A stretch of DNA of 64,000 nt. Origin: Candidatus Woesearchaeota archaeon (lineage in GTDB: Archaea > Nanobdellota > Nanobdellia > SCGC-AAA011-G17 > UBA489). Positions 20,299 to 38,252 of this stretch are shown here, piece after piece (position 1 is the stretch's first letter; each line of letters starts with the position of its first letter). The notes below the pieces were generated by a model. That model was not told the origin of the DNA and made no database searches. It worked only from the letters and a program-made list of their open reading frames with translations. The stretch covers positions 44,426-108,425 of the forward strand of contig JAGVZA010000003.1 of the NCBI GenBank assembly GCA_018302985.1, written 5' to 3'. Both the position numbers and the translations under genes were made by a program.

Positions 20299-21249
20299 AT
20301 GTACATGAAAGCGAGTGTTAAGAAAGGAGAAGATGATCGATGGGGAAATATCATTACTGATATGAGAAATTGGAAAGCCTACAACGAGGAACTTGTTGTC
20401 CGTGGCGCCTTCTATCTTGATTTGAAATGGGCGTGGTCTTGGAAACAAGAACTTGCCACGATGAATGGTGGCAAGAAAGGAAGACCTTTCTGTTTTCCTG
20501 AATCACTCATCAAACTACAGGCAGTCTGGCATCAATGGATTGACTATCGTGGCATCGAAGGAATCACACGCATGCTCGTTGAGCATGCATTGCTCCCACA
20601 GTTCAATAATTATTCAACGACAAATCGCAGAGTAAACAAACTTGATCTTACCATTACACTTCCTACTGCGGGAGAAGTGCATGTTGCCTGTGATGGCACA
20701 GGCATCAAAATGTGCAACGCAGGAGCATATAGATCAGACAAATATGGAACAAAACGCAGACCTTACATCAGAGTGATTCTCACTGCTGATCCTCTTGCTA
20801 GGAAAATCCTGGCAGTCGAGGTAAATATTGAAGGTCATGGGATGAGTGAGCCTCAAGCAGCAGTCGAGCATCTTTCGATGCTTTGGACGCATGGCAAAAA
20901 AATCAAAAAGTTTTGGGGTGATCCTGGTCTTGATGATCGTAATCTGATTAATTGGTTAGATGCAGAGCATGCTGCTATTGCGATCAAGCCAAGGCAGCTC
21001 AGAACAAGTGATTGTGCAGAATCTGCTGCACGAAAAGTGCATGTTGACAACTATATGCAAGTAGGCTATAAACAATGGGCACAAGAAAATAACTATGGCA
21101 TGCGCTGGGTCGGCACAGAAGGCATATTTTCAGCAGTTAAACGCAAGTTTGGCGAGCATGTACGATCACGAAAGCGATCGAACATGTTGAAAGAAGCAGA
21201 ACGAAAGTTCTGGGCATATGATCAGATTCAGCAATACGCAAAACACTGA
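20299..21249 (+). CDS. DDE transposase (IS5-like)
   Basis: VACDGTGIK, FWGDPGLDDRNL, RWVGTEGIFSAVKRKFG; inside the IR-bounded element. Confidence 0.88.
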   Translation: MYMKASVKKGEDDRWGNIITDMRNWKAYNEELVVRGAFYLDLKWAWSWKQELATMNGGKKGRPFCFPESLIKLQAVWHQWIDYRGIEGITRMLVEHALLPQFNNYSTTNRRVNKLDLTITLPTAGEVHVACDGTGIKMCNAGAYRSDKYGTKRRPYIRVILTADPLARKILAVEVNIEGHGMSEPQAAVEHLSMLWTHGKKIKKFWGDPGLDDRNLINWLDAEHAAIAIKPRQLRTSDCAESAARKVHVDNYMQVGYKQWAQENNYGMRWVGTEGIFSAVKRKFGEHVRSRKRSNMLKEAERKFWAYDQIQQYAKH

Positions 21250-21363
21250 CTCCAAGATAGAGTCAGTATGCTGAATCAATTATGCAACACAGCATTTCAA
21301 AAGAGTAGTTTACTTCTCAAACACCCTCAGAGTATTTATAAAGAATAAGTTATTCACAAAAAT

Positions 21364-22194
21364 ATGACAACGAAACTCGCTATCTTTGAAGGAAAAGAAG
21401 TACGTAAGACCTGGCATAATGAGGAATGGTGGTTTTCTGTAATTGATATCGTTGGTGTTCTTTCAGGAAGTGAAGATCCGAGGAATTATTGGAAAGTCCT
21501 TAAACATCGTCTTAATGAAGAAGGTTCAAATCAAACGGTTACAAATTGTAACCAGTTGAAAATGCCTGCTGAAGACGGTAAATTAAGAGAAACTGACTGT
21601 GTAAATACAGAAGGAGCCTTCAGAATTATTCAATCTATTCCCTCTCCAAAAGCAGAACCCTTCAAACTTTGGCTGGCTAAAACTGGCTATGAACGTGTTC
21701 AAGAGATAGAAAATCCAGAGCTAGCTCAAAAAAGAATGAGAGAACTCTACAGAGCCAAAGGATATTCTGATGCATGGATAGAAAAAAGAGTAAGAGGCAT
21801 TGTCATACGGGATGAACTAACAGATGAATGGAAACAGCGCGGAGTTGATGAACACAAAGAGTTTGCTATATTAACTGCTGAAATCTCCAAAGCAACTTTT
21901 GGAATGACTCCTAACGAATACAAAAAATTCAAGGGCTTGGAAAAAGAGAATCTCAGAGACCATATGAACCACATGGAACTTATCTTTACTATGCTTGGCG
22001 AGGCTTCTACTACAACAATTGCGAGAAACAAGAATGCACAAGGATTTGTAGAAAACAAGGATGCTGCAGTTGAAGGAGGAATAGTTGCTGGAGTCGCGAG
22101 AAAAGAACTTGAGCACAGAAGCGGAGAACAAGTAATGAAACCAGACAATTATCTAGATAGCCCTGAAAAGCACAAAAGACTCACCAAAAAATAG
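21364..22194 (+). CDS. Bro-N domain (phage antirepressor/DinD-like) protein
   Basis: LAIFEGKEVRKTWHNEEWWFSVIDIVGVLSGSEDPRNYWKVLKHRL. Confidence 0.85.
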   Translation: MTTKLAIFEGKEVRKTWHNEEWWFSVIDIVGVLSGSEDPRNYWKVLKHRLNEEGSNQTVTNCNQLKMPAEDGKLRETDCVNTEGAFRIIQSIPSPKAEPFKLWLAKTGYERVQEIENPELAQKRMRELYRAKGYSDAWIEKRVRGIVIRDELTDEWKQRGVDEHKEFAILTAEISKATFGMTPNEYKKFKGLEKENLRDHMNHMELIFTMLGEASTTTIARNKNAQGFVENKDAAVEGGIVAGVARKELEHRSGEQVMKPDNYLDSPEKHKRLTKK

Positions 22195-22414: not shown

Positions 22415-23122
22415 ATGCTAAAGAATATTTTGATTACAGGTATGCCTGGAAGCGGAAAATCCACAGTTCTAGAAAAAGTAATAACAAAGTATCCTAAAAA
22501 AGTTGGTTTTATCACTAGAGAAATCCGCAAAGGCAAAGACAGAGAAGGTTTTGAGATAGCAACCCATACGGGAGAAAAAGCACTCTTAGCACATATTTCT
22601 TTTACCACTTCCCAGAAAGTTTCTAAGTACTTTGTAAGTATACCTCATTTAGAATCTCTTTTACCAAAAGTAAGCAACTTTCAACCTGATGATCTTCTTT
22701 ACTTAGATGAAATAGGCCAAATGCAATTATTTTCAGATGCTTTTAAAGCACTTGTCTTAACTTATTTAGACTCAGATAACATTGTCTTGTGCACTATCAG
22801 CAAGATCTATGCAGATGCCTTTACAACCTCTCTCAAAAAGAGGGATGATGTCCTTCTTATTGAAATTACTGAGGAGAATAGAGCCTCTCAATTGGAATTT
22901 ATTAGTCAATTGATCACAAAGATACTCAAAGCACGCAACTATATCTTAGAAAAAGAGAGATTCACTATTAAAGGTAACACAGCTAAAATGCGTTCCACTC
23001 ATGCACTAAGAAATTTATCTCGTATTCATAACAGATGGACTTGTGATTGTGATTTTTTTAAGAAGCACTTTATTTGCAGCCATGCTCTAGCTCTTACTGA
23101 ACTAACTTCTAAACAACCTTAG
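22415..23122 (+). CDS. THEP1-like NTPase fused to SWIM-type zinc motif
   Basis: ILITGMPGSGKSTVLEKV...GFITREIRKGKDREGFEI; C-term WTCDCDFFKKHFICSHALAL (CxCx8CxH). Confidence 0.8.
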   Translation: MLKNILITGMPGSGKSTVLEKVITKYPKKVGFITREIRKGKDREGFEIATHTGEKALLAHISFTTSQKVSKYFVSIPHLESLLPKVSNFQPDDLLYLDEIGQMQLFSDAFKALVLTYLDSDNIVLCTISKIYADAFTTSLKKRDDVLLIEITEENRASQLEFISQLITKILKARNYILEKERFTIKGNTAKMRSTHALRNLSRIHNRWTCDCDFFKKHFICSHALALTELTSKQP

Positions 23123-23227: not shown

Positions 23228-26200
23228 ATGCAATTTACGCTCAATCCTATGGGTATTATAAGAACCTTTACCGCAATAACTAAAGATGATGTAGCTTTAG
23301 CCGGAGGCAAAGGAGCTTCCTTGGGAGAGATGACTCAAGCTGGTATTCCAGTTCCTCAGGGATTTGTACTCCTCTCAGAAGCTTTTGAACGTTTTATTCA
23401 AGAAACTAATCTTGGTGCTGAAATAGATTCTCTTCTTCATAAAGTGAAACATGAGGAAATGCATACTGTTGAAAGAGCTTCAGAACAGATTCAAGCATTA
23501 ATTCTCCAATCACAAATGCCAAAAGATATAGCAAACGAAGTAAAAAAACACTTCAAAACATTAGGAGCTAAATATGTTGCTGTTCGTTCTAGTGCAACTG
23601 CAGAAGATTCCTCTACTGCCGCATGGGCAGGACAATTAGACTCTTACTTGAATACTACAGAAGAAAAGCTCTTAGAACATGTACAACGTTGTTGGGCTTC
23701 TTTGTTTACACCAAGAGCTATTTTTTATAGGTTTGAAAAAGATCTTCACAAAACTAACATTTCTGTGGCAGTAGTGGTGCAAAAGATGATTAATTCTGAA
23801 ATTTCAGGCATAGCTTTCTCAGTGCATCCTGTAACTCAAGATTATAATCAACTTATTATTGAAGCTGGTTTTGGTCTAGGGGAAGCGATAGTTTCTGGAA
23901 CCATAACTCCTGATAGTTATGTAGTTGAAAAGCAACCTAGAAGAATTCTAGAAAAGAACATTGTCGAACAGAAAAGGGGACTTTATAGAAAAGAACAAGG
24001 TGGCAATGAGTGGCATGAACGTATTCCTCATGGACATCAACAGAAACTTTCAGATGCTCAAATTTTGGAACTCACAGCAATTGTATTAACTATAGAAGAT
24101 CATTATGGTTTTCCATGTGACATAGAATGGGCATTTGAAAAAGGAAAATTCTTCATAACTCAAAGCAGACCTATTACAACTTTGACTGAAAAAGAGAAAG
24201 AAAAGAAGTTCTTTTTTGAAAAAGAAGTCACTAGAGATTTAGCGTTATTGGCAATTGAAGGATTTGGTCCAGCACTAATTAATCTTTATAATAAACTGAA
24301 AGGCATTTATCCGACTTCTCCATTTATGATTTTTTATACTAGGAGTCTTCTTGTTGAAGAATGGCTTGATACCGACCTTTTAAAAGAATTTGTCGAGCTT
24401 ATTTATTTAGAGAATTTGAAAGGTTCAATTTTCTTAGAACAATACATCGTGAATTATAAAAAGCATTTAGATTTCTATAAAGATACTAATATTACTTCAT
24501 TAAAAGAACTACAGAAGTATTTGAGCTCATTATATTTCGCTTTAGAAAGTTTTATAATTTTCTATTTTACTGCAGGAGACAATCGAACTCCTAAACCCAT
24601 TCTTCAACTTGCAAAACAAATCCGGAATACTGACAATTTGGGCGATGCCTCTGACAAAGTAGTCAGATCAGCTCTAAAAAATATATTTCCCCATACTACG
24701 GGATATGAAACGGTTATTTCTTCTAATGACTTGCCTAATATGCCTACAATTGACGTTTTAAAAAAGCGAGCGAAACAATTCCTGTTTATTCCTGGGAAAT
24801 TCGCAGAAACTATCTCTTTGCAGGATTTTTCACATAATCACCCAGAGTATCATTTTCATATTGAAACTCCACCAGCCGATAGCACAATGCTTGTCGGCCA
24901 AATTGGGAACAAGGGACTGGCTAAAGGTAAAATTCGTATTGTAAATCGAAAGAAGGAAATTAATAATTTTCGAGAGGGAGAGATTTTAGTATCAACTATG
25001 ACGACGCCAGATTTCTTGCCTATAATGAAAAAAGCAGCCGCTTTTATCACCGATGAAGGCGGAATTACCTGTCATGCGGCCATTATTTCTCGCGAACTCA
25101 AAAAGCCATGTATTATCGGCACCAAGTTCGCTACTAAAATACTAAAGGACGGAGACTTAGTAGAAGTTGATGCAGATAATGGAATTGTGAGAATCTTAGA
25201 AAAAACAGAGGATAAATCTCTCTTAAAATATATTGAATCACAAAAATGGGGGGATTTTAAAAATGTAAGAAGACCTCTCTTAATAGCTTCGCTCTCGAAC
25301 TTAAGTGCTAGAGAGAGCAAGAAAATAATCGCGAAAGAAGATATTGATGTTAAAAAGTTTAATGAAAACTCCTTGAGAGCGTTTAATCTTAATCAACCTC
25401 ATTTGTCTAAAGAAATCTTAGTTAAAGAGTTGAAAGATCCGAAACATATTGTCAACTATATTCAAGAAGACTATACTCATCTAGCTAAGATTGTTAGTCT
25501 TATCAAAACCATAAGTGGTTACATGAAACGCAAAGATCATGCTGGCTTGCATAAGTATACTCTAGAATTTATTACTCTCTATAAAAAGATATTTTTTATG
25601 AAGTATTATTTGAACGGTTTGCTCCAAGAATTAAATGAACATGAAACCAAGTATAACTTCCCTAAGAAAGTCATAGTAATGTCCAACAATTGGAGAAATG
25701 ATTGGTCTAGCATAGAAGAGCTCTATTTTATAAAATTTATAGCAGAATTTTTAATGAAGAGGAAAATTTCTGGTAAGGATTTCATGGATTATGTTCATAT
25801 CGATGAGTTTATGGACTTACTGAATAAGAAAATAACTGGTGATTCTCTCATGGCTCTTCTTGAAAAAAGAAAAAAGAGCGGATATATTTTATTGAACCTT
25901 AAAAACAAGCACTATCAAAATAAATTATTGGAGTTTGAAGATGCAACATTCAATTCCATAGAAAATATACTCTCCGCTAACTATCACAAAGTAATACAAG
26001 CTAAAATAAAAGATAATTGCATCTTTGGAAAATCTGTACTCAAAAATAACAAAAAAGTAATTGGCGAATGCATCCTAATTCATGAAAAGAAAGACCTCCT
26101 TAAACACAAGCTAGATGGCAAAATATTAGTAACTCCTATGACGACACCAGAATTTATCCCTTACATACACAATCTAAAAGGCATTATAACTGATAATGGG

Positions 26201-28519
26201 GGAGTTGTTTGCCATGCAGCAATTACTTCTAGGGAATATAATATACCTTGTATCATTGGGACTGAAGCAGCTACCAAATTTTTAAAGAATGGCGATATGG
26301 TTGAGATTGATGCTAATAAGGGAATTATTCGTCTTTTAGAAAAAGAAACAAATAAAACAATTTTTGATCCTGCCACCATTGATTGGTTTAAAGTTATGGA
26401 AAGAAAAAATCTTTTTTTCGTAGGTTTAGCATTTACCGATGTTGAAACTGAAAAATTTAAACAAGTATGTGGATTTCAACTACAACGCTATCTTTTCAAG
26501 TATGAAAAAGGTATGTGGAGCACCTATAGAGGGATTCAAGAACACTCTGAACTTTATAACTATTTTTCACAACTAATAAAAAAGAGAGACAAAAGACTTT
26601 TTGAATTTGCAAAACAAGCAAAGAAATTTAACGATCTTGCTAAAAAATATATTGATGCTTATTCTTTAAATAAGAATGTTAAGATTGACAATTATGAAAA
26701 AGAGTATAACATTTATTGTGACACCCTTCTTTATGGAGTAACTATTCCTTGGGCAGTTCTTGGAGCTTTTGAAATAATGACTCCGACTGAAAGAAAAGTT
26801 TATAGAGATATTCTTAATTTATATGAACCTTTTAGAGCAGAATCATTATATCCTGATTTTGAAAGGAGAATACTTCAAAAATACAGAGTTGCTTTATCAA
26901 AAAGATATAATCTAGATATTAATTTACTTTACTTGCTTACACCTTGGGAACTTAAAAATGCTCTTAAAGGGATTTTTATACCGAAAAAAGAAATTCTTAA
27001 GAAGAGAAATGAATATTGCATATATTGGTTTAATCCACTAACTAAAGAAATAATTTTTTCCTATGATCCATCTATTGAGAAAAAAATAACAATTCTACAA
27101 AAAGATTCAGTGGAAAATGTTAAAATTATTAAAGGAACTATTGTATATCCCGGAATAGTTAGCGGAAATGTTAGAATCATTTATGAGGCCATAGATTGTG
27201 TGAATTTCAAGCAAAATGAAATACTTGTCTCTCCCTCTACAAATCCCACATTAATGCCTGCCATAAAGAAATGTGCAGGAATAATCACTGATGAAGGCGG
27301 TATGACTTCACATGCTGCTATTATTGCAAGAGAACTAAAGAAACCATGTATAATAGGCACAAGAATCGCAACACAGATTCTTAAAGATGGAATGGAAGTA
27401 GAGGTTGACGCTGATAATGGAATTGTGAGAATCTTATCAGAAAATAGTAAAGTTGATGAAATCAAATATGAAAAAATAATTTTATCTCAATATATGAATA
27501 GAGAACACTCTTTATTTTATGCGCATGTATGGAATGAAGCTAATAGAGATTTATTTGACTCTTTTGTAAAGGGAACTAATATTAAAAATATGGTCTTTGT
27601 ACTCAACAAACTAGGAATTCTTGAAGTATATTATGATCTTAATCAGCTGGAAGAAGTATTTAATAAAATTGCACAACGTCTTATAGAAAATCCAAAATTA
27701 CTTGAAGAGATTATCTCTAATTTTTATAAATATTGGAAGCAGTTATTTCCTTATGTAGAAAAGAAGAAAAAAATTAAGAATTTAAAGGAATTAAAAAAAT
27801 ATTATCATAATTGGATTAGTTGGTGGGCTTCAATGGCCTATCTCTTTGTCATTCCAGATCGCACAAATATTCCACAAAATCTTAAAAAGAAAGCCCTTAA
27901 GGTCCGTGTTGAAACACAACAATATTCAGATGATGGGGATAGAATATTCTTAGAATTCATCAAAGAAAAATATCCCAAATATTTCGATATAGCACATCTT
28001 ATTACTCCAGAAGAAGCTTTCAGATTAGATTCCTTATCTACGAAAGAAGTAGAAATCATCAAAGAACGAAAGAAAGGATGTGCACTGATAACTCTGCATG
28101 GAAAATCAAAACTAATAAAATCTGTTGATCTAGAGGCGGAAGCGAAAAAACAAAATATCTCTTTTGAAATAGTTAAACAGGAAAAGACAGATGAATTAAG
28201 AGGTTTAGCCGCATCTCCTGGAGCAGCTAAGGGTCCAGTAAGACTCGTGCTTAAAAAAGCAGATCTTGCTTTAGTTAAGAAAGGAGATATCATGATAACC
28301 TATGCTACGTCTCCGGATTATGTTCCTGCTATGAAAAAATGTGTAGCAGTCATCACAGATGAAGGGGGAGTTGTCTGTCATGCCGCAATCGTATGTCGTG
28401 AATTAGGTCTTCCATGCATCGTAGGAACAAAAAACGCTACTAAAATACTAAAGGACGGAGATCTAGTTGAAATAGACGCTGATAATGGAATAATTAAAAT
28501 CTTGAAGAGAACAACATGA
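23228..28519 (+). CDS. PEP-synthase-like protein: one ATP-grasp (PPDK_N) domain and four phosphohistidine swivel domains
   Basis: GGKGASLGEMTQAGIPVPQGF, YVAVRSSATAEDSSTAAWAGQLDSYLN, ITQSRPITTL; four T-D-(E/N)-GG-x-x-(C/S)-HAA motifs. Confidence 0.88.
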   Translation: MQFTLNPMGIIRTFTAITKDDVALAGGKGASLGEMTQAGIPVPQGFVLLSEAFERFIQETNLGAEIDSLLHKVKHEEMHTVERASEQIQALILQSQMPKDIANEVKKHFKTLGAKYVAVRSSATAEDSSTAAWAGQLDSYLNTTEEKLLEHVQRCWASLFTPRAIFYRFEKDLHKTNISVAVVVQKMINSEISGIAFSVHPVTQDYNQLIIEAGFGLGEAIVSGTITPDSYVVEKQPRRILEKNIVEQKRGLYRKEQGGNEWHERIPHGHQQKLSDAQILELTAIVLTIEDHYGFPCDIEWAFEKGKFFITQSRPITTLTEKEKEKKFFFEKEVTRDLALLAIEGFGPALINLYNKLKGIYPTSPFMIFYTRSLLVEEWLDTDLLKEFVELIYLENLKGSIFLEQYIVNYKKHLDFYKDTNITSLKELQKYLSSLYFALESFIIFYFTAGDNRTPKPILQLAKQIRNTDNLGDASDKVVRSALKNIFPHTTGYETVISSNDLPNMPTIDVLKKRAKQFLFIPGKFAETISLQDFSHNHPEYHFHIETPPADSTMLVGQIGNKGLAKGKIRIVNRKKEINNFREGEILVSTMTTPDFLPIMKKAAAFITDEGGITCHAAIISRELKKPCIIGTKFATKILKDGDLVEVDADNGIVRILEKTEDKSLLKYIESQKWGDFKNVRRPLLIASLSNLSARESKKIIAKEDIDVKKFNENSLRAFNLNQPHLSKEILVKELKDPKHIVNYIQEDYTHLAKIVSLIKTISGYMKRKDHAGLHKYTLEFITLYKKIFFMKYYLNGLLQELNEHETKYNFPKKVIVMSNNWRNDWSSIEELYFIKFIAEFLMKRKISGKDFMDYVHIDEFMDLLNKKITGDSLMALLEKRKKSGYILLNLKNKHYQNKLLEFEDATFNSIENILSANYHKVIQAKIKDNCIFGKSVLKNNKKVIGECILIHEKKDLLKHKLDGKILVTPMTTPEFIPYIHNLKGIITDNGGVVCHAAITSREYNIPCIIGTEAATKFLKNGDMVEIDANKGIIRLLEKETNKTIFDPATIDWFKVMERKNLFFVGLAFTDVETEKFKQVCGFQLQRYLFKYEKGMWSTYRGIQEHSELYNYFSQLIKKRDKRLFEFAKQAKKFNDLAKKYIDAYSLNKNVKIDNYEKEYNIYCDTLLYGVTIPWAVLGAFEIMTPTERKVYRDILNLYEPFRAESLYPDFERRILQKYRVALSKRYNLDINLLYLLTPWELKNALKGIFIPKKEILKKRNEYCIYWFNPLTKEIIFSYDPSIEKKITILQKDSVENVKIIKGTIVYPGIVSGNVRIIYEAIDCVNFKQNEILVSPSTNPTLMPAIKKCAGIITDEGGMTSHAAIIARELKKPCIIGTRIATQILKDGMEVEVDADNGIVRILSENSKVDEIKYEKIILSQYMNREHSLFYAHVWNEANRDLFDSFVKGTNIKNMVFVLNKLGILEVYYDLNQLEEVFNKIAQRLIENPKLLEEIISNFYKYWKQLFPYVEKKKKIKNLKELKKYYHNWISWWASMAYLFVIPDRTNIPQNLKKKALKVRVETQQYSDDGDRIFLEFIKEKYPKYFDIAHLITPEEAFRLDSLSTKEVEIIKERKKGCALITLHGKSKLIKSVDLEAEAKKQNISFEIVKQEKTDELRGLAASPGAAKGPVRLVLKKADLALVKKGDIMITYATSPDYVPAMKKCVAVITDEGGVVCHAAIVCRELGLPCIVGTKNATKILKDGDLVEIDADNGIIKILKRTT
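24893..25204 (+). other. Phosphohistidine swivel domain 1 (His616)
   Basis: ITDEGGITCHAAIISRELKKPCIIGT; His codon 25073-25075. Confidence 0.88.
26024..26345 (+). other. Phosphohistidine swivel domain 2 (His996)
   Basis: ITDNGGVVCHAAITSREYNIPCIIGT; His codon 26213-26215. Confidence 0.85.
27131..27440 (+). other. Phosphohistidine swivel domain 3 (His1362)
   Basis: ITDEGGMTSHAAIIARELKKPCIIGT; His codon 27311-27313. Confidence 0.88.
28196..28516 (+). other. Phosphohistidine swivel domain 4 (His1718)
   Basis: ITDEGGVVCHAAIVCRELGLPCIVGT; His codon 28379-28381. Confidence 0.88.
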
Positions 28520-30057
28520 AAACAAAAAACAAACTTCAACTCTCTAATCCATTTATAAATATTTCTGGAAATATTGAAAGAGAAAAATTGAAAAAGGATA
28601 TTCAATTTTGTAAAGAAAATATCTTAATCAATCGGTTCGTTAGAAGGAGAATTGTTTTCTTTATGGATGGATATAGATATGCTGCACAAGCAGTGAAAAA
28701 AAGATGGGGAATTAAATTTAGCTTTTTTGAATCAGGACATGATCAGATAAAAAAAGCTTATACTACTGAAAATCTTGAAAAAGAAGCCGGAAAAATATGG
28801 TGGAGCATGATGAATAAGGATAAAAAGTTCTCTAAACAGTTAGTCCAGGAACTTTTAGATATAATTGCATGGGAAAAAAGACTTGCTACGACTATTCCAC
28901 GAAAAGAATTGTCCAGAAAAGAAATGGAAGAAGCTATGCTCATGCATCTTGATTGGTGGATTTCCTTTTTTGAAGTTGCTTATTTATGGTTCTGTGCTGA
29001 AGACATCAAAAATATGATTGATCAGGAACTTACCCTTCTTTGGAGAGATTTCAAACATGATAAAACAACGATTACTCTTTCTTATTTTAAAGAAAATGTT
29101 TATAGACCTATGAAATGGCCTCTTTCTAGCTTAGAACAAAGAGATTTATTAGTCATTAGAACATTGCAAGGAAAAGAAAAAATATCTGCATTGCAAAAAC
29201 ATATAAAAAAATATAATCATCTTTCGTTACATAATATAGATGATGAATATTTTAATGGAGATTACTACAAGAGCAGATTACGCGCTTTGGAAGATGATAA
29301 GGAATACACTAATCAAAAAAATTCTATGGCTAAGGCTGATAAAGAAATTGAGCATGCCAATGATATTTTACAATCTTCTTCATTACCTTCATGGATTAAA
29401 GATAGAATCTCTTTTGTCCGATGGTTTATGTATCTTAGAACGGAGAGTGTCGATCATATGATGTTGGTTAATTCTGCTTATAAATCAGTTTTTAATTCTT
29501 TATCAAAGGAGTTTGGGTTGACAGTGGAAGAAGTCTTGCACATGACTTATGAAGAAATTATTTCTAGCCTAAGAAAAGGGAAATTGACTGTTACTCAAAA
29601 ACTGATAAAAAGTAGAACTCATGAAGGTTACGCCTTTTTGATAGGTGCTTATAATTCCTATTTGACTACTGGCAAAGAAGTAGATGAACTTCATAAATTA
29701 CTCATTCCCCATGAAACTAAGAAAGACATTACAGAATTTAAAGGGCAGTCTGCTTTCAAAGGTATTGTTCAAGGATTTGCAAGAGTCATTGCTGATAGAA
29801 GAAATGCACATGAATTGAAAGCAGGTGAGCTTCTTGTTACCACTATGACTTCACCAGAGTTCGTTCCAGCCATGAAATTATCTGGAGGGATTATTACTAA
29901 TGAGGGTGGTATTTTATGTCATGCAGCTATTATGTCTAGAGAGTTAAGAAAGCCGTGTCTTATTGGCACTAAAATAGCGACAGAAATTATCAAAACTGGA
30001 GATCTCTTAGAATTGAATGCAAATGAAGGAACTGTTAAAATTCTAAAAAGAAGTTAA
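28516..30057 (+). CDS. Hypothetical protein with C-terminal phosphohistidine swivel domain (fifth in array; His469), no ATP-grasp
   Basis: ITNEGGILCHAAIMSRELRKPCLIGT (His codon 29920-29922); ATG overlaps upstream TGA (ATGA). Confidence 0.85.
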   Translation: MKTKNKLQLSNPFINISGNIEREKLKKDIQFCKENILINRFVRRRIVFFMDGYRYAAQAVKKRWGIKFSFFESGHDQIKKAYTTENLEKEAGKIWWSMMNKDKKFSKQLVQELLDIIAWEKRLATTIPRKELSRKEMEEAMLMHLDWWISFFEVAYLWFCAEDIKNMIDQELTLLWRDFKHDKTTITLSYFKENVYRPMKWPLSSLEQRDLLVIRTLQGKEKISALQKHIKKYNHLSLHNIDDEYFNGDYYKSRLRALEDDKEYTNQKNSMAKADKEIEHANDILQSSSLPSWIKDRISFVRWFMYLRTESVDHMMLVNSAYKSVFNSLSKEFGLTVEEVLHMTYEEIISSLRKGKLTVTQKLIKSRTHEGYAFLIGAYNSYLTTGKEVDELHKLLIPHETKKDITEFKGQSAFKGIVQGFARVIADRRNAHELKAGELLVTTMTSPEFVPAMKLSGGIITNEGGILCHAAIMSRELRKPCLIGTKIATEIIKTGDLLELNANEGTVKILKRS

Positions 30058-30773
30058 AAACTTTTTATTACATCGAGATTTACTGGCAAAACTAAATCAT
30101 TTCTCAATAATCTTGCGTCAGTTGTTCCAGATTTTTGGTTTATGTCTATAACTAAATGTGCAATGTTTTCTCTATCAAATTGACCGCCTACATATTCGGT
30201 ACAAGGAGTACTTCTTGCAGAGTCAACAGCACTTAGAACAACTATATCTACCAAAGGAGAATGACCAGAAATAACTCCTAAACCAAAATTTCCATTTTCT
30301 AGAAGTCTAACTGCATCTCCTAAAAGAGGTCTTCTTGTATCATATATCTGTTGGAACGATGTAACTTCTACACCTTTGTTTTGAGTTGCATGTCTATTAG
30401 CCAACATCCATTCACAATATTCTGTACCCATTCCATTCATTTTAATGCCTCTGTAAGACATTCTTGGATCTGGACGAAACATTACTCCGTCAAATTGTAC
30501 TCTTTCTAAATCTGTTTCTGTTTGAGGAGCTGGAGTCATTTTTCTTATACCTGCTAGTCTAGCTCTTGCAGTATTTCTTGTTCTAGGTTTATTGCTATGG
30601 AAAACAAAAGCTTTACCTGTTTGACAATCTTGACCAATAGTTGTTTCAAAATCAAGACCTTGAGCATACATACTTTGTACAGATTCATTAGTTAATTGAT
30701 CAATACCATCAATATCTGTATAATATCCATGCCTTGCAATTATGATTACTTTTCTTACTGTTGTCATACTCAC
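30054..30773 (-). CDS. Histidine phosphatase superfamily-like protein
   Basis: VIIIARHGYYTD, FHSNKPRTRNTARARL, GVISGHSPLVDIV. Confidence 0.7.
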   Translation of the reverse strand: MSMTTVRKVIIIARHGYYTDIDGIDQLTNESVQSMYAQGLDFETTIGQDCQTGKAFVFHSNKPRTRNTARARLAGIRKMTPAPQTETDLERVQFDGVMFRPDPRMSYRGIKMNGMGTEYCEWMLANRHATQNKGVEVTSFQQIYDTRRPLLGDAVRLLENGNFGLGVISGHSPLVDIVVLSAVDSARSTPCTEYVGGQFDRENIAHLVIDINQKSGTTDARLLRNDLVLPVNLDVIKSF

Positions 30774-30847: not shown

Positions 30848-31924
30848 TTATTTTTTCTTTTCTACTTTATACACTAATTTCTCAAACACATGTTCACCCA
30901 TGACTTCCTTTCTTTTGACAGAGAGACTTTCCTTTAATTCTTTTAAAAATGGCTTTTGATTGTAGACCATATAAAAGAGGAATACCAATCCCATAGTAAT
31001 TATTGATCCTACTCCTGCTAAAAACATATCCCAATGCGCATCCCAAACATCACCTTGCATTCCGAGATAGGCAACACCTAAATCTCCTCCGAAAACTATT
31101 GCAGCTGCCCATTCTAACAATTCAAAGACTGCACTCAATGCAAGAACAGTTCCTACTGGAGCACTGAGCGCCCAAAATCCCTTGAGATTACCAATACGCA
31201 CCATTATTTCTTTGCAAGGATATGCTAACAATAAACCGAAGGAAAAGTGGACGATACGATCAAAATGATTGCGAGACAAGTTAAATATTCTTTCCAACCA
31301 AAAACCAAAAGGAACTTCTGCATAAGTATAATGTGCACCTACAATGTGCAGGACCATAAAAATATAAATCAAGGTGTATGAAAGATGTGACAACTTGAAT
31401 AATCTATGCGAATAGTAAATCAACAAGGCAAATGGAATTGTCAACACATTTTCTAGCATCCATGCATCTCGATATTTTACATGCATTGCTAAAATAATCC
31501 ACACTATAATGAATGCGACCAGCAAGAACAAGGGATATCTTTCTTTATTTTTTGTCATGTGGTATATTCCCCAGAAAGCAGCCATGACACTTAACGCTAG
31601 AGCATAGGAAATCCATAATCCCAGAGAAAATACTGACTCTATTGCTATGAAAAATGTAAATCCTGTCAAGACTGTTAGATTAAATCTTCTCAAACTTTTC
31701 TTGTACGCGATGTAAAATATACTTATAGAAATAAGACTGATAAACGCACGGGAAATCAGGTTTACTTTATAGACTGTTCCGAGAAAGAAGTAGATAATTC
31801 CTGCAAGTATTATTAGAATTATACCTATAGGGATTGTAAATTTATTTTCCTCAATTAATTTTTTTACCATGTGATTATCTACATTTCTACTCTTATAAAT
31901 GTACCTTAGTTTTATCCATAACAA
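30848..31924 (-). CDS. YjdF/DUF2238-like integral membrane protein
   Basis: HIVGAHYTYAEVPFG, NHFDRIVHFSFGLLLAYP, QGDVWDAHWDMFLAGVG. Confidence 0.8.
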   Translation of the reverse strand: MLWIKLRYIYKSRNVDNHMVKKLIEENKFTIPIGIILIILAGIIYFFLGTVYKVNLISRAFISLISISIFYIAYKKSLRRFNLTVLTGFTFFIAIESVFSLGLWISYALALSVMAAFWGIYHMTKNKERYPLFLLVAFIIVWIILAMHVKYRDAWMLENVLTIPFALLIYYSHRLFKLSHLSYTLIYIFMVLHIVGAHYTYAEVPFGFWLERIFNLSRNHFDRIVHFSFGLLLAYPCKEIMVRIGNLKGFWALSAPVGTVLALSAVFELLEWAAAIVFGGDLGVAYLGMQGDVWDAHWDMFLAGVGSIITMGLVFLFYMVYNQKPFLKELKESLSVKRKEVMGEHVFEKLVYKVEKKK

Positions 31925-31954: not shown

Positions 31955-33298
31955 ATGAAAAAAATGGTGAAAGTAGTTTCTCGACCACAGCATGAACACT
32001 CTTTACAAGAAGACTTACTCAAACGTAAAGAACAGCATGTAGCTAGAGGATTTCACGCAAGACATCCCCTGTTTATTCTAGAAGGACATAATAGTTTTCT
32101 CAAGGATGTGGATGGCAAAGTGTATATTGATTTTACCTCTGGTATTGGAGCTACGAATGCTGGTCATTCTAATCCTGCTGTTGTAGATGCCATTAAACGT
32201 CAATTAGATCATATTACTCATATTTCTTTTTCTACGAGTTATTACCAATCTTATGTTGATGTTTGTGAAAAACTTAATGGACTTGTTCCTATTCGAGGGC
32301 AAGCTAAAAGCGCTTTGTTTACTAGTGGTGCTGAAGCTGTTGAGAATGCGATTAAAATTGCCAAAGTCGCTACAGGAAGAAAGGCAGTTGTTTCTTTTGA
32401 ACATGGATTTCATGGACGAACTCTAATGACTATGACTTTATCTGCAATGATTAAACCTTACAAAAAAGGATTTGGACCTTTTGCTCCTGAAGTGTATAAA
32501 TTACCTCATCCTTATCAGTATAGAATGCCTAATAAAATGACTGAAGAAAGTTATGTCAAACAATTATTGGAAGATATTGAAGAACAATTCTTTGTTGATG
32601 TGGTTGATCCTGATGATGTTGCTTGTTTAATCATGGAGCCCATTACTGGTGAAGGCGGATTTTTGGTGCCTCCTGTGAGTTATATACAAAAGTTGAGAAA
32701 ACTCTGTCAGAAACATGGCATTTTATTTGTTGCAGATGAAATACAAACTGGTTTTTGCAGAACTGGAAAAATGTTTGCAACAGAACACTTTGACATTAAA
32801 CCTGATTTAATTACTATGGGCAAATCTTTGAGTAATGGAATGCCTTTGAGTGCTGTTAGCGGAAGAGCTGAGATCATGGATGCTGTTTCTGAAGGTGGAT
32901 TGGGAGGGACGTTTGCTGGTCATCCTGCCAGCTGTGCTGCTGCCTTGGCTACGATTGATTATTATGAACACTATAAACTCTGGGAACGAGCTGAACATAT
33001 AGGCAATGTTATTCGCAAAAAGATGCATGCCTGGAAGGAACAATTTACTTCTGTGGGTGATGTCCGTGGATTAGGGGCAATGAATGCGATTGAACTAGTT
33101 AAAGATCGACGATTAAAAACACCTGATGAACACTTGACAAAAAAAATTATTGATCAAGCACGACTCTCTGGACTTTTATTATTAAAGAGCGGCATTTATG
33201 AGAATGTTGTGAGAACTTTACCGCCGTTGACTATTGAGGATAGCACACTGCATGAGGGACTGGAAATCTTTGAGAAGACTTTACGACATCTACACTAA
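31955..33298 (+). CDS. Class III aminotransferase (4-aminobutyrate / lysine 6-aminotransferase-like)
   Basis: FTSGAEAVENAIKIAK, FHGRTLMTM, FVADEIQTGFCRTGKMFA, ITMGKSLSNGMPLSAV. Confidence 0.88.
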   Translation: MKKMVKVVSRPQHEHSLQEDLLKRKEQHVARGFHARHPLFILEGHNSFLKDVDGKVYIDFTSGIGATNAGHSNPAVVDAIKRQLDHITHISFSTSYYQSYVDVCEKLNGLVPIRGQAKSALFTSGAEAVENAIKIAKVATGRKAVVSFEHGFHGRTLMTMTLSAMIKPYKKGFGPFAPEVYKLPHPYQYRMPNKMTEESYVKQLLEDIEEQFFVDVVDPDDVACLIMEPITGEGGFLVPPVSYIQKLRKLCQKHGILFVADEIQTGFCRTGKMFATEHFDIKPDLITMGKSLSNGMPLSAVSGRAEIMDAVSEGGLGGTFAGHPASCAAALATIDYYEHYKLWERAEHIGNVIRKKMHAWKEQFTSVGDVRGLGAMNAIELVKDRRLKTPDEHLTKKIIDQARLSGLLLLKSGIYENVVRTLPPLTIEDSTLHEGLEIFEKTLRHLH

Positions 33299-33633
33299 TA
33301 TCCAAATCTTTTTTCATACTCTTTATGATTAAACCATTCAAGAATGATACTCATTATTTCAATCTTATTTTCATCTATAGTATAAATTAATCTCCATGCT
33401 TTTGGTAAATCATATTTCCATAAATTTGTTATTCGATACTCTTGTATATATACCTTAGGCCATACTTTTCTTCGGATCTTAGTTCCTTTCTCAGGATTCT
33501 CTTTTAACTCATCCATAGATTTAGCTATCCATTTGTGGATTTCTTGTTCTTCAAACTTTCCGTCTTTTAAGTCATTGAATAAATTTCTAAGATCTTCGTT
33601 TATGAAAGATACTGTCTTTTCCTTCTCAATCAT
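33295..33633 (-). CDS. RelE/ParE-like toxin candidate
   Basis: NLWKYDLPKAWRLIYTIDENKIEIMSIILEWFNHKEYEKRFGY. Confidence 0.65.
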   Translation of the reverse strand: MIEKEKTVSFINEDLRNLFNDLKDGKFEEQEIHKWIAKSMDELKENPEKGTKIRRKVWPKVYIQEYRITNLWKYDLPKAWRLIYTIDENKIEIMSIILEWFNHKEYEKRFGY

Positions 33634-33974
33634 CTTACTATTAGGCCTCTAGCTTTTAGATCTTTTATTCTTTCAGGATTATAAGTCCAGTAAATAATAC
33701 CATCTCTTCTATCAATCCTAATTTTTCCTGAGTGTAATAAATAATCTAGAATAGTTAAGTAAGTTTGGTACATCATCTTTTTAGGTAATTTTTTCCAGAG
33801 CTGATATTTACCGTATTCTTGGCTATATTTTCTGATAGTTTTTTCTACCATAAGGACTGATTCTAGAGTTGGACTATGGAATAAGTTGTTTTTTTTCATC
33901 TTATATAAGTATATATAAGAACCTCTATTTAATTCTTTCTTATTACTTTCAAATACTGGTTGTTGCTGTTCCAT
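33630..33974 (-). CDS. Small winged-helix-like protein, candidate cognate antitoxin
   Basis: ORF overlaps the downstream RelE-like ORF by ATGA; DYLLHSGKIRIDRRDGIIYWTYNPERIK. Confidence 0.45.
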   Translation of the reverse strand: MEQQQPVFESNKKELNRGSYIYLYKMKKNNLFHSPTLESVLMVEKTIRKYSQEYGKYQLWKKLPKKMMYQTYLTILDYLLHSGKIRIDRRDGIIYWTYNPERIKDLKARGLIVR

Positions 33975-34111
33975 TTGTCTCTTTTTATGTAAATGGAGTA
34001 TTCTTTATAACATTTACTTAGAAATATCCGCAAATCTTCCGAATTTATCGAAATAAAGCCATTTTAAACTCTTTTTAGAATTATTTCATAGTTCATTGGC
34101 GAAAATTTATA

Positions 34112-34783
34112 TTATAAGGAGTATGCTGCAAAATATTGCTCATGTCTTTTAAGCATTTCATGTGGTTGTGTTAAAAGTTCTTTCATAGTTACTCCTTGTT
34201 TTCCCATAAGTGCTGCTATAGTTCTTCCTCTTGAGGATAACTTATTACCTAACTTCATAAAGAAATGCATTAGTGAACCTACCTCTCCTATTTCTCTAAG
34301 GAAAGGTAAAGCATCTATTGCAAATCTCTGTGCGATTGCTTCGTGATAGTCTCCTGCTTCACGCAAAAGTCCTATTTGATTACCAGTAGATTCAAAAGGA
34401 GGAGTTGCATGATGAAGTGTAGCATGACCTAATTCATGCGCTATTACTTCTCCATCCATCTTAGAGTTCCTATAAGGATTGAGTCTTATTGCCTTGCCAT
34501 CCTTATCACACATTCCACCTAGTTCTTCCATGAAATAAGGTGTAACGCTTCCGCCTAAGGTTGTACGTAAAAATGTTGTTCTTCTAGCATCATCAACAAA
34601 ATCATTTAATGTTAAATATTTAACAGGTGGTTTAGGTATAGTAGTGTCATAGAGAGAAGCAAAGAAATTCGCTAGTCTATCTCTTAATCCATTTGCCGCT
34701 TCTAATCTTTCTTGATGTTCAGCAGTAAGAGCAATTCCGCCTTGATTTATAACATCTACTAATCTTGTTTTTAGATAGACCAT
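34112..34783 (-). CDS. HExxH zinc metallopeptidase-like protein
   Basis: GEVIAHELGHATLHH. Confidence 0.6.
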   Translation of the reverse strand: MVYLKTRLVDVINQGGIALTAEHQERLEAANGLRDRLANFFASLYDTTIPKPPVKYLTLNDFVDDARRTTFLRTTLGGSVTPYFMEELGGMCDKDGKAIRLNPYRNSKMDGEVIAHELGHATLHHATPPFESTGNQIGLLREAGDYHEAIAQRFAIDALPFLREIGEVGSLMHFFMKLGNKLSSRGRTIAALMGKQGVTMKELLTQPHEMLKRHEQYFAAYSL

Positions 34784-34878
34784 ATTTTTTTACTTGAATA
34801 TAGACTATATAAATCTTTCTTTTTGTTACTACTTTAAAGTAATTCTATATAACTTACTCTACAATTGCTTCACTAAAC

Positions 34879-35244
34879 TTAGTTTCTTAGTAATCTCTCA
34901 ACATATCTTGTTATTTCGGGGAGGGATGAGAATGTTTTATCTTCGTACCTCACTACTGTTCTTGCATGTGGTTCTAGACGATATCTTTTTCCCCCCACAA
35001 ATAGTACTCCTGCTGGTCCGTCTTGATGAAATTGTATGGGGTCTCCACTAGGACAAAATATTTTGAAAGTAGTCTCATGCTCAGGCATCCATCCAGTAAT
35101 TACAGCATCTATACCTTGCACTTGTGATCTTTCTGCATCACTTAACTCTTCTATGACTGCTACTTTACAGAACATTCTTTCCAAACCATCTCTTCTTTGT
35201 AGAAACGAAAGATTACTTATGATTCTTCTTCTCTGATTTGTCAT
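34879..35244 (-). CDS. Hypothetical protein
   Basis: ORF only. Confidence 0.45.
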   Translation of the reverse strand: MTNQRRRIISNLSFLQRRDGLERMFCKVAVIEELSDAERSQVQGIDAVITGWMPEHETTFKIFCPSGDPIQFHQDGPAGVLFVGGKRYRLEPHARTVVRYEDKTFSSLPEITRYVERLLRN

Positions 35245-35274
35245 AATTGAAGTATATTCATGGTTATTTTTATC

Positions 35275-35631
35275 TTATTCTCGTCCTCTTATTATTGATG
35301 GATGACTAGGAAGAGTCGATCTAAGATATACAACCCCTGCAAGACCAGCAACTAATAATCCAAATCCTAACACATTTTGAAAATCTCTTCTTTCTCTATC
35401 CTCTTTATTTTCTTCTTCTACTGTTTTTAACTGTCTTCTCAGATATCCTGTTTGAAGATCATAACATTCATAAGGACTTAATTCTTCTATTTCACTTCTA
35501 AGAACCCTTTCTTGCTGCATCCCTGGAGTTTCATGAATATTAGTAGCCATCAGATAAATACCTTCCCCTGCACACCCAATACTAATAGCTGTTGTGGCAA
35601 TTATTGCCTTTAGACTTTTCATTTTAATCAC
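35275..35631 (-). CDS. Hypothetical protein with two TM segments
   Basis: N-term hydrophobic IIATTAISIGCAGEGIYL and C-term FGLLVAGLAGVVYL. Confidence 0.5.
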   Translation of the reverse strand: MIKMKSLKAIIATTAISIGCAGEGIYLMATNIHETPGMQQERVLRSEIEELSPYECYDLQTGYLRRQLKTVEEENKEDRERRDFQNVLGFGLLVAGLAGVVYLRSTLPSHPSIIRGRE

Positions 35632-35727
35632 TTTTCAGTTGTAAGAGTCAATTTATAAGCTTTTTCCCTATTTTAACACAAGTTTTATTAACTTTGGACG
35701 TTTTCCAGCCCTAAAAGAGGTGATAAG

Positions 35728-37089
35728 TTGAGTTCCTTTACTTCGGTCAACCCTACAACGGGAAAGACTTTGAAGAGCTATAGATATGCTCCTGTTTCAC
35801 AACTTCAAACTGTAGTCAAACAAAGCCAAAAAGCTTATGCTCAATGGAAAAAAGTCTCTTTATCAGAGAGAATTATTCTTGTAGCTAAAGTTAGCAAACA
35901 GTTACGTCACCATAAAGAATCTTATGCTAGAATGATTACTTTAGAAATGGGCAAGCTTTATACAGAAGCAGTTGCAGAAGTAGAAAAATGTGCTGTAGCT
36001 TGTGATTATTTTTGTGATCATGCTCCTGATTTTCTCAAAGAAGAACTGATAGCAACGAATTATAAAAAAAGTTCTGTTTGTTTTGATCCTCTTGGAACCA
36101 TTTTAGCAATTATGCCCTGGAATTTTCCTTTTTGGCAAGTCTTTCGTTTTTGTGCACCTGCTTTATTAGCTGGCAATGTTATTCTTTTGAAACATTCTCG
36201 TGTTGTACCTGGCTGTGCATTGATGCTAGAAAAATTATTTAGCGATACTGGATTTCCTAAAGATGTTTTTCAAACTGTTTTTACTGATGAAGCAGGAGTT
36301 GCACAGTTGATTCCCCATGTTCAAGGTGTGACATTGACTGGCAGTGTAGCAGCTGGAAGAACTGTAGCTGCACTTTGTGGAAAACATATCAAACCTTTTG
36401 TTTTAGAATTAGGTGGTAGTGATCCTTTTGTAGTTTTGGAAGATGCAGATGTTGTTCAAGCAGCGAAAACTGCTGTCACCTCTAGATTTTTGAATTGCGG
36501 ACAAAGTTGCATTGCAGCCAAACGCTTTATTGTTGTCAAAAATAATGTCCAGGCATTTACTGATGCAGTCGTTCAAGAGATTGGACACTTTGTTATTGGT
36601 AATCCTCTGGAAAGTGAAACTACTTTAGGTCCGTTAGTGCGTGAAGACCAAGTGAAAGTTTTAGATAAACAAGTGAAATTAGCAGTCAAACAAGGAGCAA
36701 GACTCTTAGTTGGTGGAAATAAACTACCAAGAGAAGGATTTTTCTATGCACCTACACTTCTCACTAATGTTAAATCTACCAATGTGTTATTTCAAGAAGA
36801 AGTTTTTGGTCCAGTGATGCCTGTGATTACAGCTAAAGATGATCAAGAAGCATTACGTCTAGCAAATCAAAGTAGTTTTGGGTTGGGTGCTAGTGTTTGG
36901 ACTAGAGATATGAAAAAAGCAGATTATTTCGCTCACCATCTAGAAGCTGGGGTTGTTGCCATTAACAGCATGGTTAAATCTGATCCTAGACTACCCTTTG
37001 GCGGTGTGAAAGATTCAGGTATTGGGAGAGAATTAAGCAGATATGGTCTGTTAGAATTTTGTAATGTAAAGACGGTGGTTCTGCAATGA
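35728..37089 (+). CDS. Aldehyde dehydrogenase (succinate-semialdehyde DH-like)
   Basis: MPWNFPFWQVFRF, LELGGSDPFVVLEDAD, NCGQSCIAAKRF; TTG start after GAGGTGAT SD. Confidence 0.88.
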   Translation: MSSFTSVNPTTGKTLKSYRYAPVSQLQTVVKQSQKAYAQWKKVSLSERIILVAKVSKQLRHHKESYARMITLEMGKLYTEAVAEVEKCAVACDYFCDHAPDFLKEELIATNYKKSSVCFDPLGTILAIMPWNFPFWQVFRFCAPALLAGNVILLKHSRVVPGCALMLEKLFSDTGFPKDVFQTVFTDEAGVAQLIPHVQGVTLTGSVAAGRTVAALCGKHIKPFVLELGGSDPFVVLEDADVVQAAKTAVTSRFLNCGQSCIAAKRFIVVKNNVQAFTDAVVQEIGHFVIGNPLESETTLGPLVREDQVKVLDKQVKLAVKQGARLLVGGNKLPREGFFYAPTLLTNVKSTNVLFQEEVFGPVMPVITAKDDQEALRLANQSSFGLGASVWTRDMKKADYFAHHLEAGVVAINSMVKSDPRLPFGGVKDSGIGRELSRYGLLEFCNVKTVVLQ

Positions 37090-38252
37090 AATATGTAGTT
37101 TTAGGCGGCACTGGAGAAATGGGTAGATTTGTTGTGAGAGATCTCTTTGAAACTGCGAAAGATGCTCAGATTGTTATTGCTGCCCGCGACATGGAAGAAG
37201 TGAACAAGTATGTCGCTTCATTTAAATCTTCTCGAGTCACTGGCGCTAAAGTTGACTTACTAGAGATTGAAGCTACTGCACAAGTCTTGAGTGGAGCAAC
37301 TGTCTGCATTAATTGTACAAATTATTATTATAACCTGCATGCGATGAAATCTTGCTTGCTGGCAAAATGTCATTATGTTGACTTAGGCGGATTGTATCAT
37401 ATGACTAAAAAACAATTGCAATTCTTCAATCTCTTTAGGAAAAAAGATTTGTTGGCAGTTATTGGCTGTGGATCTACTCCAGGAATAACGAATGTTATGA
37501 TTAAACATGCTGCTGAATCTTTTGAAAAAGTAACTGCAATTCATATTCGTTTTGGCGGTCATGACTGGACTAAACATAGCCAGCATTTTGTTCTTCCTTA
37601 TACTGCATATACTTTGTTTGATGAATTTACTGATAGACCTATGATTATGGAACGCGGCAGAATTAAAATTATGGAACCTCTTTCAGGACAAGACCATTAT
37701 AAATTTCCAGATCCTGTTGGGAAGAAAACCTGCTTCTATACTTTACACTCAGAATTAGCAACTATTCCCCAGAATTATCAGAAAAAAGGATTACGCGACT
37801 GCAGTTTTAGAGTTTGCTTTCCAGAAGACTTAGTGCATGACATGCAACTTCTCATTGAATTTGGTATGACTTCTAACAAACCTATGAACATTGGCAAACA
37901 AACAGTTATTCCTAGAGAAGTTACAGCTAAAGAATTGAATCGAGCTGCTCTTTCTTCTAAACATCCGAAGATTAAAGATATGGAATTTGTCTGGGTTGAT
38001 CTTGAAGGTATTAGTAAAAGGAAAAAAACTAAAATGTCTATTTATTGTGTTTCAAAAAATAATCCCAAGTGGAATGCTTCTGCTGGCGCGGTTGATACTG
38101 CTGTGCCTCCCTCCATTATAGCACAGATGATTGCTGCAAATCAATTAGGACAGAGAGGAGTTGTACCTCCAGAATTGTGCATTGCTCCAGAACCTTTTTT
38201 CAAAGAATTAAAAAAACGAGGCATGGTCATTAAATCTAAGACTAAGAGGTGA
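37086..38252 (+). CDS. Saccharopine dehydrogenase-like protein
   Basis: MKYVVLGGTGEMGRFVVRDL Rossmann start, INCTNYYYNLHAMKSCLLAKCHYVDLGG, IGCGSTPGITNVM. Confidence 0.8.
   Translation: MKYVVLGGTGEMGRFVVRDLFETAKDAQIVIAARDMEEVNKYVASFKSSRVTGAKVDLLEIEATAQVLSGATVCINCTNYYYNLHAMKSCLLAKCHYVDLGGLYHMTKKQLQFFNLFRKKDLLAVIGCGSTPGITNVMIKHAAESFEKVTAIHIRFGGHDWTKHSQHFVLPYTAYTLFDEFTDRPMIMERGRIKIMEPLSGQDHYKFPDPVGKKTCFYTLHSELATIPQNYQKKGLRDCSFRVCFPEDLVHDMQLLIEFGMTSNKPMNIGKQTVIPREVTAKELNRAALSSKHPKIKDMEFVWVDLEGISKRKKTKMSIYCVSKNNPKWNASAGAVDTAVPPSIIAQMIAANQLGQRGVVPPELCIAPEPFFKELKKRGMVIKSKTKR

Follow-up and report, generated by a model that had tools for sequence, protein, structure and literature searches.

A candidate ATP-driven multi-acceptor phosphotransferase with one ATP-grasp domain and five swivel arms in a Woesearchaeota genome

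Within a 64,000-nucleotide stretch of a Candidatus Woesearchaeota archaeon genome (assembly GCA_018302985.1, contig JAGVZA010000003.1; hereafter the window), two coupled genes encode one ATP-grasp domain and five phosphohistidine swivel domains, each swivel following a segment for which an acceptor role is proposed. The best explanation, which we regard as probable, is an ATP-driven, modular dikinase that serves several acceptors in parallel branches. The known dikinases considered here combine one ATP-grasp domain with one swivel and one acceptor domain, and the open-access literature that we searched, which is part of the whole, held no description of a one-loader, many-acceptor layout, in the candidate phyla radiation (CPR), in DPANN or elsewhere. 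The component parts were already known; what appears new, by that literature, is this layout, together with its occurrence across Patescibacteria and DPANN.

Domains of the gene pair

Open reading frames (ORFs) A and B are both open and share an ATGA at 28516-28519, where they overlap (Table 1). Pfam family PF01326 (PPDK_N) matched ORF A once, at residues 23-327 (E 3.6e-100), and PF00391 gave four matches in ORF A, with a summed E of 1.8e-102, and one in ORF B (1.5e-19). A first-pass annotation, made by a model from the nucleotide letters, had described a single intact PPDK_N-type ATP-grasp in a chain of 1763 amino acids (aa), four swivels with histidines at residues 616, 996, 1362 and 1718, and a fifth (His469) in a coupled gene devoid of an ATP-grasp; ORF calls, Pfam matches and a residue check placed each of these exactly where it had been reported. 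The histidines of ORF A are near-regularly spaced (380/366/356 aa) and all five swivels carry the phosphohistidine motif [T/S]xxGGxxxH, with TDNGG in swivel 2 and TNEGG in ORF B. The ATP-grasp is of PPDK_N type with catalytic residues, as in the dikinase superfamily of rifampin phosphotransferase (RPH): K28, R120, E300, Q312 and R314, which we take to be the equivalents of the RPH ATP-site residues, appear conserved. Lys22 and Arg117 are the RPH residues matched to this site (PMC4844700).

The annotation had also argued against a standard PpsA or PPDK on the grounds that a phosphoenolpyruvate (PEP)-binding TIM barrel was absent, a view that our searches upheld. PF02896 (PEP-utilizers_C) found no match in ORF A, ORF B or the whole host assembly (1.04 Mb, 24 contigs, approximately 88% complete), compared with its presence in 14 of 14 control genomes, and a hidden barrel was rejected on this count. 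By predicted fold, the inter-swivel segments match RPH and not a TIM barrel. Across the assembly, the ATP-grasp of ORF A is the sole PF01326 match, the five window swivels are the sole PF00391 matches, and no other phosphate donor of the ATP-grasp/swivel superfamily is present. The assembly encodes archaeal-type ribosomal protein S28e; order-level relatives have genomes of approximately 0.4-1.8 Mb, and their PpsA groups with archaeal PpsA. On these features the host is most likely a member of DPANN.

Table 1. Features of the window and domain architectures of related loci (G and L numbers are our handles for genomes and loci)
Feature	Position or locus	Strand	Basis or detail
ORF A, 1763 aa: ATP-grasp + (acceptor segment + swivel) x4	23228..28519	+	ORF call, Pfam
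PPDK_N ATP-grasp, residues 23-327	23294..24208	+	Pfam
Acceptor segment 1, residues 328-559, predicted RPH-like helical	24209..24904	+	relatives, superfamily profile, fold search
Swivel 1	24968..25183	+	phospho-acceptor His616 = 25073-25075
Acceptor segment 2, residues 661-942	25208..26053	+	relatives, superfamily profile
Swivel 2	26114..26323	+	His996 = 26213-26215
Acceptor segment 3, residues 1046-1305	26363..27142	+	relatives, superfamily profile
Swivel 3	27206..27421	+	His1362 = 27311-27313, context TSHAA
Acceptor segment 4, residues 1411-1658	27458..28201	+	relatives
Swivel 4	28277..28489	+	His1718 = 28379-28381
ORF B, 513 aa: acceptor segment 1-408 + swivel 5, without ATP-grasp	28516..30057	+	ORF call, Pfam, model
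Swivel 5 (ORF B)	29818..30030	+	His469 = 29920-29922
RHG-motif (histidine phosphatase-like) protein, convergent with ORF B	30054..30773	-	motifs, homology
DUF2238 membrane protein	30848..31924	-	Pfam
Stand-alone ATP-grasp amid separate acceptor-swivel genes	L064, L112, L119, L123, L133, L135, L203		
ATP-grasp + 1 swivel	L054, L083, L086 and others		
ATP-grasp + 2 swivels	L065, L080, L081, L098, L193, L194, L196		
ATP-grasp + 3 swivels	L191		1637 aa
ATP-grasp + 4 swivels	window; L099; L190; L192		L099, 1863 aa; L190, 2217 aa; L192, at least 2013 aa
ATP-grasp + 8 swivels	L189:3024-14306	-	single chain, 3761 aa
Reversed order, swivel-swivel-ATP	L195:4374-8540		C-terminal ATP-grasp

The swivels of the window are 46-62% identical as proteins, and their five segments share no significant pairwise BLASTP match, in line with the earlier description of different helical segments between swivels. 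In a 42-sequence alignment, mean pairwise identity was 53% for swivels and 17% for segments; to judge by sequence, the swivel would be the constant, kinase-facing part and the segment the variable acceptor part. Among 165 segments from fetched loci, we found relatives of segment 1 (L100:248-1255, the third segment of L099, L086 and L128), segment 2 (L110:11045, L119:10927, L083:11327, L116 and L070), segment 3 (L104 and, by clustering, L122:4851), segment 4 (L054 at 34% identity, L112:10953, L110:10015 and L108:8955) and the ORF B segment (L073 and others). Iterated profiles merged nearly all segments into one superfamily, segment 2 being the most isolated.

Structure models cover ORF B (pLDDT 84, pTM 0.80) and residues 1-662 of ORF A, comprising the ATP-grasp, segment 1 and swivel 1 (pLDDT 78). 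The first-pass annotation had proposed comparing the segments with RPH, and for both models RPH was the best fold match, as 5fbu for ORF B (E 9e-15) and 5hv1 for ORF A 1-662 (E 4e-36), with the HpeI ATP-grasp 9goj also matched by the latter. A segment-plus-swivel profile aligned to RPH residues 498-878, and all five segments could be aligned at a motif of LxxR type that precedes the swivel. The acceptor signature of RPH-Lm is Arg666-Glu667-x-x-Lys670 (PMC4844700), and its position is occupied by [KR]-D-x-R-K in many modules and by R-T-E-S-V in ORF B. The inter-swivel segments are predicted to be diverged members of one superfamily, with an RPH-like helical acceptor fold placed ahead of the swivel in the models of ORF B and ORF A 1-662.

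Relatives and kinase-to-swivel ratios

Counting swivels per chain in homologues, as had been suggested, gave one, two, three, four and eight with a single ATP-grasp (Table 1). Swivels greatly outnumber kinases in several genomes, with PF00391 and PF01326 matches standing at 20 vs 2 in G111 (one of the two in canonical PpsA), 16 vs 2 in G117, 15 vs 2 in G110, 12 vs 2 in G113, 8 vs 1 in G115, 7 vs 1 in G108 and 46 vs 3 in G239 (one canonical PpsA, one weak match), the last being a genome of 1.5 Mb from the same class as the window. Overall, swivels per genome reach 20 in Patescibacteria and 46 in DPANN, and PPDK_N kinases other than canonical PpsA number only one or two. Because PpsA brings its own swivel, this gene-content accounting would leave one stand-alone kinase to phosphorylate approximately 19 (G111) to approximately 45 (G239) swivels, although another phosphate donor may serve the extra swivels in such relatives. 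The phospho-acceptor histidine, whose loss in homologues had been a concern, was kept in all 170 module swivels of a set selected by similarity to those of the window. In arrays of at least three swivels, the best swivel match lay outside the swivel's own array in 78 of 84 cases.

The nearest ATP-grasps, at up to 73% identity, were found in Patescibacteria, and the ATP-grasps of the window, of other modular archaeal proteins and of modular patescibacterial proteins make up a clade of their own, distinct from PpsA (SH-aLRT 96). Archaeal members are scattered among bacterial ones within this clade, where inner support is modest, which suggests gene exchange between domains. The stand-alone ATP-grasp of G073 (L058) groups with PpsA, and the role of stand-alone loader may therefore have been filled twice. 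Fusions with at least two swivels number 14; on the ATP-grasp tree they require 14 changes, of which well-supported branches force at least four. Separate genes are also arranged around one loader: the L064 operon holds an ATP-grasp, four modules and an RHG gene, and in L203 (genome G239) seven modules lie in one coupled operon, both up- and downstream of a single stand-alone ATP-grasp.

Two further arrangements were observed in the comparison set. In L042, L043 and L048, from the window's order, a small swivel protein (111-308 aa) is paired with a 246-269-aa ATP-grasp, perhaps representing a separate two-component dikinase family. In G010, G017, G023, G027, G028, G033 and G042, PF00391 matches are split near position 35 in very long frames, probably by inteins in the PpsA swivel domain.

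Proposed mechanism and its alternatives

In RPH, PpsAB and HpeHI, the beta-phosphate of ATP passes to the swivel histidine with release of AMP and Pi, and the swivel then swings over to the acceptor domain. The ATP-grasp protein of HpeHI loads a separate swivel protein in trans without a stable complex (PMC12167813). By analogy, the lone ATP-grasp of ORF A would load the histidines of its four arms, in cis or in trans, with release of AMP and Pi, and would load the fifth arm, in ORF B, in trans. Every charged arm would then dock on its own RPH-like helical domain and pass the phosphate to a substrate bound there, such that one kinase would drive five parallel phosphotransfer reactions of differing specificity. 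Fusion would merely raise local concentration, with the arms loaded independently, because relatives keep the modules separate and in any order. Adjoining phosphatases would probably remove or process the phosphate; we infer this role, like trans-loading and parallel rather than serial flow, from gene content and arrangement. As acceptors, hydroxyl-bearing small molecules are the most likely, and among these scavenged metabolites that phosphorylation would trap or activate. Metabolite trapping has been proposed for HpeHI by its authors (PMC12167813), and a similar role would suit scavenging symbionts.

The earlier proposal that one kinase module could serve several swivel arms and substrate modules draws strong support from comparative genomics, because stand-alone ATP-grasps are accompanied by as many as seven separate acceptor-swivel genes, one or two non-PpsA ATP-grasps are encoded alongside 15-46 swivels per genome, and fusions with two, three, four and eight swivels recur. 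Several points weigh against the proposed dikinase. The ORF A chain is known from one metagenome-assembled genome, our searches turned up no close relative fused in this way, and a congener (G007, 83% complete) has one module and no ATP-grasp. A segment-only sequence profile found no relatives in the PDB, and the acceptor assignment therefore depends on predicted models, of which module B has a TM-score to RPH of approximately 0.5 and ORF A 1-662 a pTM of 0.48. The R-E-x-x-K signature of RPH is partly recognisable, its alignment being ambiguous in segments 1-4, and some modules could be carriers or binders that pass nothing to a small molecule.

RPH (Listeria RPH-Lm, PDB 5fbu/5hv1) shares with the window proteins an ATP-grasp, a helical substrate domain and a C-terminal swivel histidine, but has one acceptor and one swivel per chain, whereas the window has many, and its acceptor domain is longer (approximately 440 aa vs 230-410). 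In HpeHI, CreHI and phenylphosphate synthase PpsAB, an ATP-grasp protein phosphorylates a separate acceptor-swivel protein in trans (PMC12167813). Those systems have one acceptor protein per kinase, compared with one kinase for 5 to approximately 45 swivels here; the modules are fused in the window and separate but one-to-many in relatives, and serial fusions also occur here. PpsA and PPDK share the PPDK_N and PEP-utilizers domains but differ by the barrel and the ATP-grasp clade described above. The phosphotransferase system (PTS; EI-HPr-many EIIs) likewise has one phosphate-loading component feeding many substrate-specific branches through a homologous swivel domain; it is, however, driven by PEP rather than ATP, its enzyme I has the C-terminal PEP-binding barrel that the window chain and genome lack, and each swivel here shares a protein with its acceptor. 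We tentatively entertain, as a reading that could well be right but that we hold with some doubt, an ATP-driven counterpart of PTS: a genome-wide branched network, largely of Patescibacteria and DPANN, in which one loader kinase would charge dozens of swivel-acceptor proteins that differ in specificity, have dedicated phosphatases opposing them and have been fused time and again into multi-arm megaenzymes. The system takes a notable share of very small genomes with poorly understood metabolism. Knowing its acceptors would offer tangible insight into what these uncultivated symbionts take up, trap or use for signalling, and the system offers a natural kit for building a multi-reaction kinase around one ATP-using domain.

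The collinear layout and near-regular histidine spacing invite a serial His-to-His relay in which the ATP-grasp loads swivel 1 only, the assembly line raised by the first-pass annotation. We find this scarcely credible, since modules also exist as proteins in their own right, their order varies, and they can precede or follow the ATP-grasp (L195, L203), all of which fits parallel branching better. Decaying duplicated units or an assembly artefact, also raised there, would account for the tandem layout and the plain homology of the swivels, yet this is very improbable: every histidine is intact, the segments are beyond pairwise detection and are nonetheless matched by relatives in other phyla, most swivels find their best match in other arrays, and long fusions arose independently in other genomes. 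At the DNA level, the swivel-coding copies share 63-72% identity with the reference copy, which speaks against an assembly repeat, and recent tandem duplication or decay was rejected on these grounds. Broad antibiotic or xenobiotic inactivation, with every module an RPH-like detoxifier of its own drug, is an improbable reading. RPH is the closest solved structure, and large, divergent per-genome module sets would suit many targets. However, the NCBIfam rifampin phosphotransferase model NF041857 scored 522 bits, summed over five stretches, below its 999-bit cut-off, and the chain departs from one swivel per ATP-grasp; adjoining phosphatases would reverse inactivation, and no resistance genes were seen nearby.

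The main rival to the multi-acceptor dikinase, which we consider unlikely, is a regulatory phosphohistidine network in which the phosphorylated swivel histidine, or partner proteins bound to the modules, act as the signal. The shared ATP-grasp would write it, SixA-like RHG proteins and LMW-PTP would erase it, and the helical domains would sense proteins or ligands. The neighbouring genes speak for it. His_Phos_1 (14), LMWPc (6) and HD (6) were the most frequent Pfam families among 142 module-adjacent genes from the window's order and from Patescibacteria, and the first two do not figure in the top 25 families of 142 distal genes. RHG proteins were enriched near modules by homology (23/297 vs 4/650 far) and by motif (15/252 vs 6/541; Fisher p 2e-4), as was LMW-PTP by motif (6/252 vs 0/541), in a test whose seeds were picked after the neighbours had been seen. 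The window's own RHG protein has RHG14-16, RTRNTA64-69 and GHS170-172, no Pfam match of its own, and 33% identity (E 7e-31) to L064:8913-9653, the last gene of the homologous operon in G065. A further 28 DPANN loci, taken as a second set, did not replicate the RHG association (0/83 by homology and one by motif); there, HAD-type hydrolases led the neighbours (5/57), one adjoining the eight-swivel gene (L189, 2424-3014). Because this set shows HAD rather than RHG, the association of module arrays is with phosphatases in general, depending on clade. The HAD genes again suit a regulatory network, but phosphatases could equally serve small-molecule products, and the acceptor domains match the fold of RPH, a small-molecule kinase.

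Other neighbouring genes

The DUF2238 gene also adjoins modules in a congener (L067:3254-3715) and directly follows the ATP-grasp in a parcubacterium (L093:7550-8161). At L079:12427-14394, beside swivel modules, a histidine phosphatase domain is fused to an N-formylglutamate amidohydrolase-like domain. A PADLOC scan for defence systems gave weak, unrelated matches only, and a search of viral contigs for a viral origin gave three matches, weak or PpsA-like.

Just upstream of ORF A, at 22415-23122, a THEP1-like NTPase_1 domain is fused to a C-terminal SWIM zinc finger, a gene not conserved beside other arrays. Further upstream, 20299-22194 encodes a DDE transposase, with a local rise in GC to 0.43, and a Bro-N protein; the two mark a possible mobile insertion near the array. 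Downstream, at 31955-41080, two class-III aminotransferases, an aldehyde dehydrogenase and saccharopine-dehydrogenase-like genes are clustered.

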